Under the pieces are notes generated by a model. That model worked only from the letters and a program-made list of their open reading frames with translations. It was not told where the DNA came from and ran no database searches. The translations under genes were made by a program, and so were the position numbers. DNA of 64,000 nucleotides from Pseudomonadota bacterium (GTDB lineage Bacteria > Pseudomonadota > Gammaproteobacteria > Burkholderiales > Burkholderiaceae_C): contig JAIUPH010000006.1 in NCBI GenBank assembly GCA_020161065.1, forward strand, positions 62,001-126,000, read 5' to 3'. Below, in pieces: positions 23,749 through 33,561 of this stretch (its first letter is position 1; every line of letters begins with the position of its first letter).

Positions 23749-25311
<1,563 letters not shown>

Positions 25312-25325
25312 AGGAGGATCGAACC

Positions 25326-25790
25326 ATGATGACCAACCCCGTCGGCCGCATCACCCAAGGCCAGTTCAGCTTCCTGCCCGATCTCAGCGACGAAGAGATC
25401 GCGCAGCAGATCCAGTACGGCTTGAACAAGGGTTATGCCTGGAGCGTCGAATACACCGACGATCCGCACCCGCGCAACACCTACTGGGAGATGTTCGGCC
25501 TGCCGATGTTCGACCTGCGCGACGCCGCCGGCGTGCTGGCCGAGGTGAACGCCTGCCGCCAGACCTTCCCGCAGCACTACGTGCGGCTGATGGCCTTCGA
25601 CGCCACGCGCGGCGTCGAGAGCATCGCGATGAGCTTCATCGTCAACCGGCCCGACGCCGAGCCCGGCTTCGGCCTGCAGCGCCAGGAAGTGCAAGGCCGC
25701 ACGCAGCGCTACACGGTGCGCGGCTACGCCGCCGAGGCGCCGGAGTCGCAGCGTTATCACGCGCCGGGTGGCGCACGGGGAGCGCAATGA
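25326..25790 (+). CDS. cbbS: RuBisCO small subunit, red type
   Basis: 154-residue small subunit that caps the L8 core and is needed for full activity. It begins with [16 protein letters not shown], typical of red-type small subunits, continues with [28 protein letters not shown], and has the long C-terminal extension that forms the central beta-barrel in red-type enzymes. AAGGAGG precedes the ATG at 25326; a second ATG follows directly. It starts 14 bp after cbbL and overlaps cbbE by 4 bp. Confidence 0.98.
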
Positions 25791-26476: not shown

Positions 26477-27438
26477 ACCGCCCGCTGTACGCCATTCCCG
26501 GCAGCAGCGCCGCGGCGCCGGTTTCGACGCCGGCGCCGGCATCCGCCGCAGCGCCGCCTAACGTGCCACCAGGGCGCACCGTGGCCGAGGTGCTGGCGCA
26601 AAGCCAGGTCGAAGCCGTGCTCGACGAACTGGAGCGCGACCTCGTCGGCCTGGCGCCGGTGAAGCAGCGCGTGCGCGACATCGCCGCGCTGCTGGTGGTC
26701 GACCGGCTGCGCACGGCGCAAGGCTTGCCCACCGCCAACCCCAGCCTGCACATGTGCTTCACCGGCAACCCCGGCACCGGCAAGACCACGGTGGCCTTGC
26801 GCATGGCGCAGATCCTGCACCGCCTGGGCTACGTGCGCCAGGGCCAGATGGTGGCGGTGACGCGCGACGACCTCGTCGGCTCGTACATCGGCCACACCGG
26901 CCCGAAGACCAAGGAAGTGCTGAAGAAGGCGATGGGCGGCGTGCTCTTCATCGACGAGGCCTACACGCTGTACCGCCCCGAGAACGAGCGCGACTACGGG
27001 CAGGAGGCGATCGAGATCCTGCTGCAGGTGATGGAGAACCAGCGCGACGACCTGGTCGTCATCCTGGCCGGCTATGCCGACCGCATGGACAGCTTCTTCC
27101 GCTGCAACCCGGGCTTGAGCTCGCGCATCGCGCACCACCTGGGCTTTCCCGACTATTCGCAGGCCGAGTTGCTGCAGATCGCCGAGCGCATGCTGGCGCA
27201 GCTGCAGTACGGCTTCGGCCCCGGCGCGCGCGAGGCGCTGGCGCAGTACCTGGAATTGCGCGTGCAGCAGCCGCATTTCGCCAACGCGCGCAGTGTGCGC
27301 AACGCGCTCGACCGCGCGCGGCTGCGCCAGGCCAGCCGCTTGTTCGGCGAGCGCGACCGCGCGCTGTCGCGCGACGACCTGTCCACCATCACGCAAGCCG
27401 ACATCCGCGCCAGCCGCGTCTTCGCGGCCAACGCCTGA
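26473..27438 (+). CDS. cbbX: Red-type RuBisCO activase CbbX
   Basis: AAA+ ATPase that releases inhibitory sugar phosphates from red-type RuBisCO by pulling on the large-subunit C-terminus; it is allosterically activated by RuBP. 321 residues: an Ala/Pro-rich N-terminal segment to about 35, then Walker [19 protein letters not shown], the pore-loop region [19 protein letters not shown], Walker [14 protein letters not shown], and sensor/arginine-finger regions to the end. Its presence next to cbbLS confirms the red-type assignment. Confidence 0.98.
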
Positions 27439-27466: not shown

Positions 27467-28570
27467 ATGCCCTTGTCGCAACGCTGGACGCTGACGCGCT
27501 ACCTGATCGAAGAGCGGCGCCGCTTTCCGCAGGCCGAAGGCAGCCTGAACGCGCTGATCCTCGACGTCGCGCTGGCCTGCAAGGCCATCGCCCGCATCGT
27601 CGCCCTCGGCGCGCTGTCCGACGCGCCGGGCGCCGCGCCGGCGGGCGGCGCCATCAACGTGCAGGGCGAGGTGCAGAAGCCGCTGGACCTGCTGTCCAAC
27701 GAGATCTTCATCCGCATGAACGAGTGGAACGGCCACCTCGCAGGCCTGGCCTCGGAAGAGCTGGAAGCGCCGCAGCAGATTCCCGCCGCCCACCAGCGCG
27801 GCCGCTACCTGCTGGTGTTCGACCCGCTCGACGGCTCCAGCAACATCGACGTCAACGTCTCGGTGGGCAGCATCTTCTCGATCCTGCGCGCGCCCGACGA
27901 GCTGGCGCCCGCCGGCGACGGCCAGCCCCAGCGCGACGTGACCGAGGCCGACTTCCTGCAGCCCGGCGCCGCGCAGGTGGCCGCCGGCTACGCCATCTAC
28001 GGCCCGACCACGATGCTGGTGCTGACGGTGGGCAACGGCGTGGCCGGCTTCACGCTCGACCGCAACCTCGGCGAGTTCGTGCTGACGCACCCCAACCTGC
28101 AGGTGCCGGCCGACAGCCAGGAGTTCGCCATCAACACCAGCAACAGCCGCTTCTGGGAGCCGCCGGTCAAGCGTTATGTCGACGAGTGCCTGGCCGGCCG
28201 CAGCGGGCCGCGCGGCAAGGACTTCAACATGCGCTGGATCGCCAGCCTGGTGGCCGAGGCGCACCGCATCCTGATGCGCGGCGGCGTCTTCATGTACCCG
28301 CGCGACACCAAGGACCCGGCCAAGCCCGGCCGCTTGCGCCTGCTGTACGAGGCCAACCCGATCGGCTTCGTGATGGAGCAGGCCGGCGGCCGTGCCAGCA
28401 CCGGCCGCCAGACCATGCTGGGCGTCAAGCCGAGCGCACTGCACCAGCGCATCGGCTTCGTGTTCGGCTCGCGCCACGAGGTCGAGCGCATCGAGCGCTA
28501 CCACCACGAGCCGGCGCCGCGCGACAGCGGCACGCCGCTGTTCGCCGAGCGCAGCCTTTTCCGGAGCTGA
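27467..28570 (+). CDS. cbbF: Fructose-1,6-bisphosphatase class 1
   Basis: Hydrolyses fructose 1,6-bisphosphate (and probably sedoheptulose 1,7-bisphosphate) in the Calvin cycle. 367 residues. Motifs are [20 protein letters not shown] for metal and substrate, [16 protein letters not shown], and [10 protein letters not shown] followed by [21 protein letters not shown] near the C-terminus. The ATG at 27467 is preceded by a GGAG site; the gap from cbbX is 28 bp. The operon position favours the cbb-specific isozyme. Confidence 0.97.
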
Positions 28571-28575
28571 CCCCC

Positions 28576-29460
28576 ATGTCCGAACGCCACCCCATCATCG
28601 CGATCACCGGCTCCTCGGGCGCCGGCACCACTTCGGTCACGCGCACCTTCGAGAACATCTTCCGCCGCGAAGGCGTCAGCGCCGCGGTGATCGAAGGCGA
28701 CAGTTTCCACCGTTATGACCGCCAGGAGATGCGCGAGCGCCAGGCCGCCGCCGAGCGCGCCGGCGACAAGCACTTCAGCCACTTCGGCCCCGAGAACAAC
28801 CTGTTCCCCGAACTGGAGCAGCTGTTCCGCGCCTACGCCGAAAGCGGCAGCGGCCGGCGCCGCAAGTACCTGCACGACGCCGGCGAGGCCGCGCCCTACC
28901 AGCAGCCGCCCGGCACCTTCACGCCCTGGGAAGACTTGCCCGCCGGCACCGACTTGCTGTTCTACGAAGGCCTGCACGGCGCGGTGGTCACGCCCGAGGT
29001 CGACGTCGCGCGCTACCCCGATCTGCTGATCGGCGTGGTGCCGGTCATCAACCTGGAGTGGATCCAGAAGCTCTACCGCGACAAGAACGTGCGCGGCTAC
29101 AGCGCCGAGGCGGTGACCGACACCATCCTGCGCCGCATGCCCGACTACGTGCACTACATCTGCCCCCAGTTCACGCACACGCACGTCAACTTCCAGCGCG
29201 TGCCGGTGGTCGACACCAGCAACCCCTTCATCGCGCGCGACATCCCCAGCGCCGACGAAAGCCTGTGCGTGATCCGCTTCGCCAACCCCAAGGGCATCGA
29301 CTTCCCCTACCTGCTGAACATGATCAACGATTCGTGGATGAGCCGCGCCAACACCGTGGTGATGCCCGGCGGCAAGATGGAGCTGGCGATGCAGCTCATC
29401 TTCACGCCCTTCATCTGGCGCATGATGGAGCGCGCCCGCCGCGCGCGCGGAGCGCTGTGA
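28576..29460 (+). CDS. cbbP: Phosphoribulokinase
   Basis: Makes ribulose 1,5-bisphosphate from ribulose 5-phosphate and ATP, the second enzyme unique to the Calvin cycle. 294 residues, typical of the bacterial octameric class I enzyme. The P-loop is AITGSSGAGTTSVT; the catalytic region includes EGDSFHRYDRQEM; LLFYEGLHGAVV and NLEWIQKLYRDKNVRGYSAE follow. The bacterial enzyme is usually activated by NADH. It lies 5 bp after cbbF and overlaps cbbT by 1 bp (TGATG). Confidence 0.98.
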   Translation: MSERHPIIAITGSSGAGTTSVTRTFENIFRREGVSAAVIEGDSFHRYDRQEMRERQAAAERAGDKHFSHFGPENNLFPELEQLFRAYAESGSGRRRKYLHDAGEAAPYQQPPGTFTPWEDLPAGTDLLFYEGLHGAVVTPEVDVARYPDLLIGVVPVINLEWIQKLYRDKNVRGYSAEAVTDTILRRMPDYVHYICPQFTHTHVNFQRVPVVDTSNPFIARDIPSADESLCVIRFANPKGIDFPYLLNMINDSWMSRANTVVMPGGKMELAMQLIFTPFIWRMMERARRARGAL

Positions 29461-31481
29461 TGGCCAGCGAATCGACCGAGCGCGTGCGGCGCGGCAGCGC
29501 CGCGTCGACCGACCCGCGCGCCAGTGCCTTGCGCGCGCTGGCGATGGACAGCGTGCAGCAGGCGCGCTCCGGCCACCCCGGCGCGCCGCTGGGCATGGCC
29601 GAGATGGCGCTGGCACTGTGGAGCGGCCACCTGCGCCACGACCCCGCCGACCCGCAATGGCCCGACCGCGACCGCTTCGTGCTCAGCAACGGCCACGCCT
29701 CGATGCTGCTGTACGCGCTGCTGCACCTGAGCGGCTACGCGCTGCCGCTGGCCGAGCTGCAACGCTTCAGGCAACTGGGCAGCCTGACGCCGGGCCACCC
29801 CGAGGCCGGCCACACGCCGGGCGTGGAGACCACCACCGGCCCGCTGGGCCAGGGCCTGGCCAACGCGGTGGGCATGGCGCTGGCCGAAGCGCGGCTGGCG
29901 GCCGAGTTCAACCGCCCGGGGCATGCGCTGGTCGACCACCGCACCTGGGTCTTCGCCGGCGACGGCTGCCTGATGGAAGGCATCAGCCACGAGGCCTGCG
30001 CGCTGGCCGCCGTGTGGGGCCTGCACAAGCTGGTGCTGCTGTACGACGACAACGGCATCAGCATCGACGGCCCGGTGCAAGGCTGGTTCCGCGACGACAC
30101 CGCCGCGCGCTTCAAGGCCTACGGCTGGCACGTGCTGGGCCCCGTCGACGGCCACGACCTCGCGGCGCTGGACCAGGCGATGACGCTGGCGCGCACGCAC
30201 ACCGGCGCGCCGACGATCATCATCTGCCGCACCACCATCGGCCAGGGCGCGCCCAACCGCGCCGGCACCGCGCGCGCCCACGGCGAGCCGCTGGGCGCCG
30301 ACGAAGTGGCCGCCACGCGCGAAGCCATCGCCTGGCCGCACGCGCCGTTCGAGATTCCGCCCGACGTGTACGCGGCCTGGGACGCGCGGCCGCGTGGCGA
30401 GCTGCGGCGCAGCGAATGGCTGTCGCGCTGGACCTCGTACCGCGCGGCGCATCCGGCGCTGGCCGCCGAGTTCGAGCGCCGCGTCAACGGGGAGTTGCCG
30501 GCCGACTGGCCCGCGCTGCGCGCCACGCTGCTGGCCGAGGCCGAGGCGTCGGACAAGCCGCTGGCCACGCGCAAGGCCAGCCAGCGCGCGCTGGCCTTGC
30601 TGGGCCCGCGCCTGCCCGAGCTGCTGGGCGGCAGCGCCGACCTCACGGGCAGCAACCTGACCGACTTTCCCGGCTGCGGCGCGCGCCACATCAGCCACGG
30701 CGTGCGCGAGTTCGGCATGGCCGCCATCCTCAACGGCGTGGCGCTGCACGGCGGCTTCATCCCCTACGGCGGCACCTTCCTCGCATTCAGCGACTACAGC
30801 CGCAACGCCATCCGCATGGCGGCGCTGATGAAGCTGCGCGTCGTCCACGTCTTCACGCACGACAGCATCGGCCTCGGCGAAGACGGCCCCACGCACCAGC
30901 CGGTGGAGCATGCCGAGAGCCTGCGGCTCATTCCTAACCTCGATGTCTGGCGGCCCGGCGACGCCTTCGAAACCGCCGCCGCCTGGGCCGCCGCGCTGCA
31001 GCGGCAGGATGGCCCCAGCGCGCTGCTGCTGTCGCGGCAAGACCTGCCGCCGCAGCCGCGCGGCGAAGCGCAGCGTGCCGGCGTGCCACGCGGCGGCTAC
31101 GTGCTCGCCGACCGCGCCGGCGCGCGCGCCGTGCTGATCGCCAGCGGCTCGGAACTGGCGCTGGCGATGGCCGCGCAAGCGCTGCTGGACGCGCGCGGCC
31201 TGCCGGTGCGCGTGGTCTCGCTGCCCAGCAGCAGCGTGTTCGACCGCCAGGACCGCGCCTGGCGCGACGCCGTGCTGGGCCGCGGCTTGCCGCGCATCGG
31301 CGTCGAGGCCGGCGTGACGCGCGGCTGGGGCGCCTATGGCTGCGCCGCCACGCTGGGGCTGGACCGCTTCGGCGAATCGGCGCCGGCGGGCGAGCTGTTC
31401 AAGCATTTCGGGTTCACCGCGGAGAAGCTGGCGCAGCTCGTCGAGCAGGCGTGCCGCGAGGTCGCCGAGACAGCGCCATGA
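29460..31481 (+). CDS. cbbT: Transketolase
   Basis: Thiamin-diphosphate enzyme that moves two-carbon units between sugar phosphates in the Calvin and pentose phosphate cycles. 673 residues. Domain 1 contains RSGHPGAPLGMAEMALALW, ETTTGPLGQGLANAVGMALA and the ThDP motif FAGDGCLMEGISHEA ending in LLYDDN. The pyrimidine-domain Glu lies in SHGVREFGMAAILNG, and HVFTHDSIGLGEDGPTHQP is the transketolase signature. The C-terminal domain ends EVAETAP. Its stop is part of an ATGA that begins a chain of two micro-ORFs leading to cbbY. Confidence 0.97.
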   Translation: MASESTERVRRGSAASTDPRASALRALAMDSVQQARSGHPGAPLGMAEMALALWSGHLRHDPADPQWPDRDRFVLSNGHASMLLYALLHLSGYALPLAELQRFRQLGSLTPGHPEAGHTPGVETTTGPLGQGLANAVGMALAEARLAAEFNRPGHALVDHRTWVFAGDGCLMEGISHEACALAAVWGLHKLVLLYDDNGISIDGPVQGWFRDDTAARFKAYGWHVLGPVDGHDLAALDQAMTLARTHTGAPTIIICRTTIGQGAPNRAGTARAHGEPLGADEVAATREAIAWPHAPFEIPPDVYAAWDARPRGELRRSEWLSRWTSYRAAHPALAAEFERRVNGELPADWPALRATLLAEAEASDKPLATRKASQRALALLGPRLPELLGGSADLTGSNLTDFPGCGARHISHGVREFGMAAILNGVALHGGFIPYGGTFLAFSDYSRNAIRMAALMKLRVVHVFTHDSIGLGEDGPTHQPVEHAESLRLIPNLDVWRPGDAFETAAAWAAALQRQDGPSALLLSRQDLPPQPRGEAQRAGVPRGGYVLADRAGARAVLIASGSELALAMAAQALLDARGLPVRVVSLPSSSVFDRQDRAWRDAVLGRGLPRIGVEAGVTRGWGAYGCAATLGLDRFGESAPAGELFKHFGFTAEKLAQLVEQACREVAETAP

Positions 31482-31513
31482 AAGCCCTGAGAACCTGGGA
31501 AGCAGCGCCATGA
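31478..31513 (+). CDS. 11-codon micro-ORF 1 between cbbT and cbbY
   Basis: Would encode MKALRTWEAAP. Its ATG overlaps the cbbT stop as ATGA (31478-31481), and its own stop overlaps the ATG of the next micro-ORF in the same way. It arose from the 32-bp tandem repeat: the first residues copy the CbbY N-terminus (MKAL) and the last copy the CbbT C-terminus (AP). It probably matters as a reinitiation step rather than as a peptide. Translation is an inference. Confidence 0.45.
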   Translation: MKALRTWEAAP

Positions 31514-31545
31514 AAGCCCTGCGAATCACGAAGGCAGCGCCATGA
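31510..31545 (+). CDS. 11-codon micro-ORF 2 between cbbT and cbbY
   Basis: Would encode [11 protein letters not shown]. It starts inside the stop of micro-ORF 1 and ends inside the cbbY start, again as ATGA (31542-31545). A ribosome leaving cbbT would have to terminate and restart three times to reach cbbY. No function of the peptide is suggested by its sequence. Confidence 0.45.
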   Translation: MKALRITKAAP

Positions 31546-32321
31546 AGGCCCTGCTCTGGGACGTCGACGGCACCCTCGCCGAGACCGAGCGCGATGGCCA
31601 CCGCGTCGCCTTCAACGAGGCTTTCGAAGCGCTGGGCCTGCCCTGGCGCTGGGACGAGGCGCACTACGGCCGGCTGCTGACCGTCAGCGGCGGTCGTGAG
31701 CGCCTGCTGCACGACATGGCCGCGCGCACCGATGCGCCGCCGCTGGCGCAGCAGCGCGAGGCGCTGGCCGCCGAATTGCACGCGCTGAAGAACCGGCGCT
31801 ACGCCGACCGCGTGGCCGCCGGCGCGGTGGCGCTGCGGCCGGCCGTCGCGGCGCTGATCGCCGAGGCGCGGCGCCAAGGCCTGCGCCAGGCCATCGCCAC
31901 CACCACCAGCCGCGCCAACCTGCGCGCGCTGCTCGCGGCGGCGCCGGCGCTGGGCGGCATCGACGGCTTCGACGCCGTGGTCTGCGGCGAGGACGTGCAG
32001 CGCAAGAAGCCCGACCCCGAGGTCTTCCAGCGCGCGCTGGCGCTGCTGCAACTGCCGTCGCTGCAGGCGTTGGCGATCGAGGATTCGCCCGGCGGCGCCG
32101 CCGCCGCGCGCGCCGCCGGCGTGCCGGTGGTCGTGACGCGCAGCCACTACTTCGCGCAGGCCACGATCGAAGGCGCCGTCGCCATCGGCCCCGGGCTGGA
32201 CCGCCGCGACGGCTGGCGCCCGGCCTTGACCGAGCGCGGCGGCGGCGGCGAAGGCCGCGTCACGCTCGCCGACCTGCAGCACTGGTGCGCGCTCGGCGAC
32301 TGCGTGTCCCAGTTCACCTGA
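31542..32321 (+). CDS. cbbY: HAD-family sugar bisphosphate phosphatase CbbY
   Basis: 259-residue HAD phosphatase. Characterised CbbY proteins remove xylulose 1,5-bisphosphate, a misfire product that inhibits RuBisCO, and so work with CbbX. Motif I is [13 protein letters not shown] (Asp7, Asp9), the cap region includes [13 protein letters not shown], motif II is IATTTSR, and motifs III/IV are KKPDPEVFQ with LAIEDSPGG. The TVSGGRERL stretch separates it from phosphoglycolate phosphatase (CbbZ). The start is fixed by [10 protein letters not shown] after the repeated junction. A 28-bp gap separates it from cbbA. Confidence 0.92.
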
Positions 32322-32349
32322 CCCATCGAACCGAAAGACCCACCCCACC

Positions 32350-33393
32350 ATGGCCTTCATCGCCTTGCGACAACTGCTGGACCACGCCGCCGAGCACGGC
32401 TACGGCGTGCCGGCCTTCAACGTCAACAACCTGGAGCAGATCCACGCCATCCTGCAGGCGGCCGAGGAGACGCAGTCGCCGGTCATCCTGCAGGCCAGCG
32501 CCGGCGCGCGGAGCTACGCCGGCGAGCCCTACCTGCGCCACCTGGCGCTGGCCGCGGTGGAAGCGCACCCCGACCTCCCGCTGTGCCTGCACCAGGACCA
32601 CGGCGCCACGCCCGCAGCGTGCCAGCAAAGCATCCGCTCGGGCTTCACCAGCGTGATGATGGACGGCTCGCTGCGCGCCGACGGCAAGACGCCGGCCGAC
32701 TACGACTACAACGTCGAAGTAACGCGCCAGGTCTGCGGCATGGCGCATGCCGTCGGCGTCTCGGTGGAAGGCGAGCTGGGCTGCCTGGGCTCGCTGGAGA
32801 CCGGTACCGCGGGCGAGGAAGACGGCGTCGGCGCCGAAGGCGTGCTGGGCCGCGAGCAACTGCTGACCGACCCGGCGCAGGCGCGCGACTTCGTCGAGCG
32901 CACCGGCGTCGACGCGCTGGCGATTGCCATCGGCACCAGCCACGGCGCCTACAAGTTCAGCCGCCCGCCCAGCGGCGAGACGCTGGCCATCGAGCGCATC
33001 GCCGCCATCCACGCCGCGGTGCCCGACACGCACCTGGTGATGCACGGCTCGTCGTCGGTGCCGCAGGAGTGGCTGGAGATCATCCGCCGCCACGGCGGCG
33101 ACATCAAGGAAACCTACGGCGTGCCGGTCGACGAGATCCGCCGCGGCATCGCCAGCGGCGTACGCAAGGTCAACATCGACACCGACATCCGCCTGGCGAT
33201 GACCGGCGCGATGCGGCGCTGCTTCGCCGAGCGGCCCGCCGAGTTCGACCCGCGACAGGCGCTGAAGGCGGCGACGCAGGCCGCGCGCGGCGTCTGCAAG
33301 GCGCGCTTCGAGGCCTTCGGCTGCGCCGGCATGGCGCCGCGCATCAAGCCGCTGCCGCTGGAGGCGATGAGCCGACGCTACGCCGCGGCGTGA
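32350..33393 (+). CDS. cbbA: Fructose-bisphosphate aldolase class II
   Basis: Zinc-dependent aldolase that joins dihydroxyacetone phosphate with glyceraldehyde 3-phosphate (or erythrose 4-phosphate) in the Calvin cycle; also glycolytic in reverse. 347 residues. Zinc and catalytic motifs are [44 protein letters not shown] and [28 protein letters not shown] closes the barrel. Last gene of the operon; no pgk or gap gene follows. Confidence 0.97.
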
Positions 33394-33406
33394 CGCGGCG
33401 GCCCTG

Positions 33407-33440
33407 AAAAGCCAAAGGCCACCCGGTCAGAGGTGGCCTT
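33407..33440 (-). terminator. Rho-independent terminator between cbbA and purU
   Basis: 9-bp stem AAGGCCACC paired with GGTGGCCTT around an 8-base loop. On the minus strand it is followed by TGGCTTTT, so it works best for transcripts coming from the purU side, about 170 nt past the purU stop. On the plus strand, ending cbbA, the T-run is poor. Confidence 0.65.
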
Positions 33441-33561
33441 GAAGCTACCGAGCAGGCAGCGAAGCCTGACGGGCACTGGCGCCGGGTACGGGTTCCGGGG
33501 GTCCGCCCATTGTTGCGGCCGGTTGTTGCCAGAGACGCTGCGCATCGTACGCTCGGCACGA

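Follow-up and report, generated by a model that had tools for sequence, protein, structure and literature searches.

The window analysed here, a stretch of DNA of 64,000 nucleotides, includes part of a cbb (Calvin cycle) cluster, the relevant features of which are collected in Table 1. The cluster includes the Rubisco genes, a transketolase gene (cbbT), a gene of the HAD-family phosphatases (cbbY) and, next to it, an aldolase gene (cbbA). The start of cbbT is unsettled, either the gene caller's 29460 or 29487, and its stop codon is the TGA at 31479-31481. The closest PDB matches to the product of cbbY are the solved CbbY proteins 4uar (E 1.6e-44) and 4uat (E 7e-44). According to the cited account, CbbY removes xylulose-1,5-bisphosphate, an inhibitor of Rubisco (PMC10212915), and the amount of CbbY in proportion to the other cluster products might therefore influence carbon fixation. 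Two further observations concern the arrangement of these genes. The gene-caller coordinates place a 4-nt overlap also between the genes of the Rubisco small subunit and the epimerase (25787-25790), and on the minus strand an open frame 1,017 codons long (29307-32360) lies antisense to both cbbT and cbbY and, as is expected in high-GC DNA, fooled a gene caller trained on long ORFs.

Table 1. Features of the cbb cluster around the cbbT-cbbY junction (positions in the window).
Feature	Position	Strand	Basis or remark
Rubisco large subunit	at 23848		
Rubisco small subunit	at 25326		
Ribulose-phosphate epimerase	at 25787		
AAA protein, presumably CbbX	at 26581		name assumed
Fructose-bisphosphatase	at 27467		
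Phosphoribulokinase	ends 29460		
cbbT, transketolase	29460..31481	+	TIGR00232, 847.8 bits (cut-off 682.25; residues from 29487); gene call
32-bp tandem array, 2.6 copies, cbbT-cbbY junction	31471..31554	+	TRF score 119; unit comparison
Micro-ORF 1, MKALRTWEAAP	31478..31513	+	ATG overlaps cbbT stop; TGA overlaps next ATG
Micro-ORF 2, 11 codons	31510..31545	+	stop overlaps cbbY ATG
AAGG, which we take to be Shine-Dalgarno-like	31531..31534	+	7 nt before cbbY ATG; read from sequence
cbbY, HAD-family phosphatase	31542..32321	+	PDB relatives 4uar, 4uat; Pfam Hydrolase/HAD_2
cbbA, class II fructose-bisphosphate aldolase, next in cluster	32350..33393	+	TIGR01521, 598.4 bits (cut-off 496.35); Pfam F_bP_aldolase

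The original prediction, made from the sequence alone, held that a repeated 32-bp unit links cbbT to cbbY through a series of stop-start overlaps, and this is confirmed here. The array is real and unusual: its TRF score is the highest of 41 TRF rows in the window and exceeds the best score of every one of 20 windows generated by an order-4 Markov model (46 to 94), which rules out a chance repeat. Its core consists of the end of cbbT and the start of cbbY. ATGA joints lie at 31478-31481, 31510-31513 and 31542-31545, with a stop/start overlap of 4 nt at each, so that cbbT, micro-ORF 1, micro-ORF 2 and cbbY form a continuous chain; the three -1 frame shifts return cbbY to the frame of cbbT, 63 bases downstream. 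The frame arithmetic of the original prediction is likewise borne out. A read-through product of cbbT into cbbY would nevertheless stop, owing to a second in-frame TGA at 31488. Since the unit carries ATGA and its period of 32 is of the form 3n+2, each copy becomes a stop-start joint. Any duplication of an ATGA junction keeps the relay frame one time in three, and the intact frame is thus not separate evidence of design.

Units 1 and 2 are identical at 26 of their 32 bases. All six differences fall in the last 13 bases, and there are none in the first 19, which are those shared with cbbY (hypergeometric P of 0.0019 with a 19-base core, rising to about 0.02 if the core is drawn as 20 bases, since position 20 differs). 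This agrees with the earlier proposal that the second halves of the units had diverged around an intact core and stop/start frame, and the divergence of the spacers indicates that the array is neither fresh nor a recent sequencing artefact. At the codon level these changes amount to R/R, T/I, W/T and E/K, and the middle of the micro-ORF peptide is therefore not conserved. That the joint was kept while the spacer diverged hints at selection on the joint, or at homogenisation between copies. We regard the kept core as the best evidence in the sequence for a possible constraint on the joint, although homogenisation would look identical.

Among the three ATGs, the clearest ribosome site is the AAGG before that of cbbY. 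Pairing of the 20 nt before the three ATGs with the anti-Shine-Dalgarno sequence was estimated at -6.3, -4.2 and -4.2 kcal/mol (cbbY, -4.2), a score that is not limited by position, the value of -6.3 stemming from a GAGGT too far upstream. The corresponding medians were -3.9 for 58 genes of the window and -3.0 for 500 positions chosen at random. The three starts had accessibilities ordinary for the window (0.439, 0.519 and, for cbbY, 0.437), the other starts sampled ranging from 0.088 to 0.582. An RNA element in the array region was considered and dropped, as the fold of 31440-31600 was ordinary (z of -1.04, with 26 of 200 shuffles folding at least as well) and no Rfam match was found at 29000-33500. 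Likewise, a consensus scan of 31000-31700 yielded no sigma-70-like promoter, which speaks in favour of the original prediction, although the scan is weak in that shuffled sequences are also expected to give none. Altogether, the layout makes the proposed chain of termination and reinitiation plausible, but cbbY, with an AAGG of its own 7 nt before the ATG, need not depend on it.

We then compared the cbbT-cbbY junctions of related bacteria. CbbY matches were obtained in 37 of 81 genomes of the genus and 29 of 399 of the family (both at 1e-60), and in 4 of 399 of the order (at 1e-75), the own genome being counted in each, as well as in 8 of 13, 2 of 6 and 3 of 5 genomes of further genera; 8 of the 38 CbbY places in the genus search were without a locus. 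After that of the own genome, the best CbbY among the 81 genus genomes was 70% identical. One locus of Rubrivivax albus (L006) turned out to be the same place as a locus of the genus set (L030, genome G001), and the GTDB-like genus of the window thus includes this species. Junctions were retained if CbbY was at least 45% identical, cbbT shared its strand and the gap between the two measured -60 to 300, which left 17 distinct junctions, that of the window included; those outside the gap limits, several with cbbY about 650 to 800 nt past the cbbT stop, or with no cbbT match were left out. Six of the 17 overlapped by 4 and two by 1, seven had gaps of 9-58 nt and no array, and two carried arrays. 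The comparison supports the view that direct overlap, found without an array at 8 of the 17 junctions, is the older state. The original prediction had called for counting the units in relatives: an array was indeed present at 2 of the 17 junctions, but of the 16 other than the window 15 had none and the remaining one was of different sequence. A DNA search of the 81 genus genomes with the window array returned, among the matches listed, only cbbY coding sequence and no second copy. In a plasmid collection the best match, Eleftheria terrae, lacked an array and had a gap of 10 nt. The order-wide search added three new CbbY loci, none of which had a cbbT next to it under the junction filter. One of the seven gapped array-free junctions (L040, genome G047) displayed a one-step relay, an 18-codon micro-ORF, MSTARTHRVAPPRTDPRR, that is ATGA-joined to both genes, a kind of chain that chance alone produces at about 6% of junctions with a gap.

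The second array was found in genome G017, of the same genus as the window genome (locus L041, on the minus strand of contig C18, near 182,900). It is also a 32-bp repeat at the cbbT-cbbY junction (4.1 copies, TRF score 192), but its sequence is different. TTGA stands at each stop, and there are TTG-started 11-codon micro-ORFs, two alike and one diverged; the chain ends at a CTGA 23 nt before the cbbY ATG and does not reach cbbY, before which G017 carries GGAGAAGGA. In the search with the window array, the match listed for G017 covered only positions 119-171 of the query, that is, the cbbY coding part. In the CbbY tree G017 groups with three array-free junctions with gaps of 17, 19 and 27 nt (99/95 support) and the window falls outside this group, its own place being poorly supported. 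The absence of a DNA match and the separate position in the tree suggest that both arrays are best read as independent, in which case their shared period of 32 bp would be a coincidence or have another reason. About 0.04 arrays would be expected by chance in the 16 other junctions, an estimate based on 1,466 pairs, in which four other arrays had a neighbouring gene of the same direction no more than 150 nt away.

To place these arrays in context, stop-crossing repeats and relays were surveyed in three genomes of the genus, 2.464 Mb in all (the window and two further contigs of G000, two of G017 and one of G004; L106-L225), with a gene caller seeded with nine genes of the window. The caller returned 2,096 genes; neighbours ran in the same direction in 1,468 pairs, and 209 of these overlapped by 4. 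Stop codons were crossed by 13 tandem repeats with a period of 15-100 and a score of 60 or more, the periods being 0, 1 and 2 modulo 3 in six, three and four cases, respectively. Periods of the form 3n+2 were therefore not preferred (4 of 13), as expected in the absence of selection on the frame. A chain repeated in successive units occurred only in the two cbbT-cbbY arrays, both known beforehand. One-step relays between genes are at chance level, as they were found in 55 of 929 gapped pairs (about 6%) against 52.9 in dinucleotide shuffles and 45.4 under a Markov-3 null. Two-step relays, defined by any start codon, -4 joints (NTGA) and micro-ORFs of at least two codons, numbered 13 of 929, the window included, against 4.0 in shuffles (maximum of 8 in 100) and 3.6 under the Markov-3 null. 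This excess depends on the settings, was noticed post hoc in one data set and counts the array of the window throughout: it became 8 against 2.6 with micro-ORFs of at least five codons (the maximum of 100 shuffles being also 8), 2 against about 0.4 with ATG only (shuffle maximum of 2) and 20 against 8.4 under looser rules, for which one-step relays were 73 against 72.3. Some of the two-step relays consisted of short joint repeats such as GTGACGTGA.

A literature search at the level of titles and abstract openings revealed no array of this kind at a cbb junction. The closest precedent is found in the senX3-regX3 arrays of mycobacterial MIRUs. A 2025 review presents MIRUs as a natural example in which a small ORF is coupled, at a spacing of -4, to the gene that follows (PMC12548453, citing Supply 1997), and the sources cited here report 41 places in H37Rv with units of 40-100 bp, 12 of them polymorphic (PMC2734929), and 77-bp and 53-bp units in varying number at senX3-regX3 in the tuberculosis complex (PMC2453075, PMC4213456); differential translation within an operon is among the roles proposed (PMC2734929). 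In the cbbT-cbbY array, too, units follow one another in tandem between two operon genes and their small ORFs are linked stop to start, and by our own arithmetic 77 and 53 are both 3n+2, as is 32. However, MIRUs, as described there, are a dispersed and apparently mobile family with known variation in copy number, while the unit described here measures only 32 bp, is local and is made of the flanking genes' own ends, and no variation in its copy number was seen (one genome per species). A dispersed or mobile element is rejected, since a search allowing up to two mismatches in the 6.29-Mb assembly found the core three times within the array and, outside it, only at three dispersed sites, each with two mismatches. 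The array is thus MIRU-like in layout but not a MIRU.

Termination-reinitiation at single ATGA overlaps provides a second comparison. Coupling at such overlaps has been measured for natural gene pairs of E. coli and Haloferax volcanii (PMC6728339, PMC10666635). In these reports natural pairs lose most coupling at gaps of about 20 to 38 nt (PMC10666635, PMC6728339), as little as the final 15 nt of the first gene can be sufficient (PMC10666635), and the majority of pairs, though not every one, depend on a Shine-Dalgarno site (PMC10666635, PMC6728339). The 4-nt joint is the same as here, but those couplings, as described, are single joints between full genes, and at cbbT-cbbY there are three in series with micro-ORFs between them. 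Synthetic short upstream ORFs have also been reported to deliver ribosomes to a target gene (PMC13255528). There, as at cbbT-cbbY, a nonsense peptide precedes the gene, and it is the position of its stop rather than its product that would be useful, although the synthetic ORF stands at the transcript start with a strong internal ribosome site and the arrangement described here is natural, tandem, placed between genes and provided with weak sites.

On balance, we lean towards an old tandem duplication of an overlapping cbbT-cbbY junction, tolerated because coupling can survive it, rather than an evolved tuner. An ancestral junction with a 4-nt ATGA overlap would have been duplicated as a 32-bp unit, probably by replication slippage, and each stretch from one joint to the following one thereby turned into a micro-ORF of 11 codons. 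After finishing CbbT, ribosomes would stop at 31481; a fraction might then resume at the overlapping ATG, read the 11 codons of micro-ORF 1, stop and resume again at 31513, and finally stop at 31545 and reinitiate on cbbY, this last step being aided by AAGG; other ribosomes would start on cbbY de novo. As a net result, CbbY would still be made, partly coupled to CbbT and probably less tightly than with one overlap. If the last 15 nt can suffice for coupling, an 11-codon ORF could pass ribosomes on, which a plain 60-nt gap would do poorly; such a gap would be expected to uncouple cbbY and two translated micro-ORFs may not, so that the relay itself may have made the duplication tolerable. The array-free overlaps at 8 of 17 junctions, the rare but recurrent stop-crossing repeats, the unconserved middle of the peptide and the ordinary RNA fold all argue for this explanation; the kept core (P of about 0.002-0.02), an array in G017 that would be unlikely by rare slippage and the excess of two-step relays argue against it.

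The main alternative, which we consider less probable but by no means negligible, is that the array is idle, cbbY being translated de novo from its own AAGG and ATG and the micro-ORFs hardly or not at all. The position of AAGG and the ordinary accessibility of the cbbY start would fit, as would G017, in which GGAGAAGGA precedes cbbY and the relay is broken upstream; moreover, one-step relays arise by chance, and formal relays need not be used. Yet the frequent overlaps in relatives suggest that coupling matters at this junction, the core was kept while the spacer diverged, and pairing with the anti-Shine-Dalgarno sequence over the 20 nt ahead of cbbY does not surpass that of a typical gene of the window. 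More doubtful is the proposal of the original prediction that serial termination-reinitiation sets the CbbY:CbbT ratio, with the number of units tuned under selection. The kept core and diverged spacers, the same period at the same junction in G017, the two-step excess and the reported variation in copy number of the comparable mycobacterial array (PMC2453075) are consistent with it, but 15 of the 17 junctions manage without an array, 3n+2 periods are not in excess, the chain of G017 stops short of cbbY, and no intermediate copy numbers were seen among the junctions (one genome per species, the next CbbY being 70% identical). The claims that the array is there to set the ratio and that copy number tunes it are not supported beyond plausibility. 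A function of the micro-ORF peptides themselves, or a mobile, MIRU-type nature of the repeat unit, is very improbable; MIRUs prove that such elements exist (PMC12548453), but the middle of the peptide differs at three of four residues (RTWE/RITK), and the core, simply the end of cbbT and the start of cbbY, is not dispersed in the genome. We give hardly any credit to a sequencing or assembly artefact: there is a single assembly of the species (41 contigs), but 6 of the 32 bases are not the same in the copies, and at 84 bp in total the array is shorter than ordinary sequencing reads.

Should ribosomes run the chain, it would offer a natural and minimal setting in which to measure how much translation survives each step of termination and reinitiation, and it would bear on the choice between local reinitiation and scanning, presented as an open dispute in the cited work (PMC10666635). 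The array also illustrates that operon joints can lengthen unbroken through tandem duplication with a 3n+2 period. If it is idle, it calls for caution, as chance accounts for formal one-step relays at about 6% of the gapped junctions of such high-GC genomes. A bolder generalization, which strikes us as improbable, would be that Rubrivivax-type cbbT-cbbY junctions repeatedly grow 32-nt-spaced arrays that act as translational dividers, each joint passing on a fixed fraction of ribosomes, and, more broadly, that two-step relays are unannotated operon joints over-represented in these genomes. A length of 32 nt is about that of one ribosome footprint. Two other loci of the survey may be mentioned. 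At 586605-587469 of the joined stretch of contig C18 in G017 (+20000 for the contig), an ATGA chain built of GGCCATGA-like repeats reaches the next gene in two steps, the first being MSGHERP and the second an ORF of 34 codons, and at G000:C37:187026-187139 a 35-bp repeat of 3.3 copies lies across the stop of a gene whose next neighbour is on the opposite strand.
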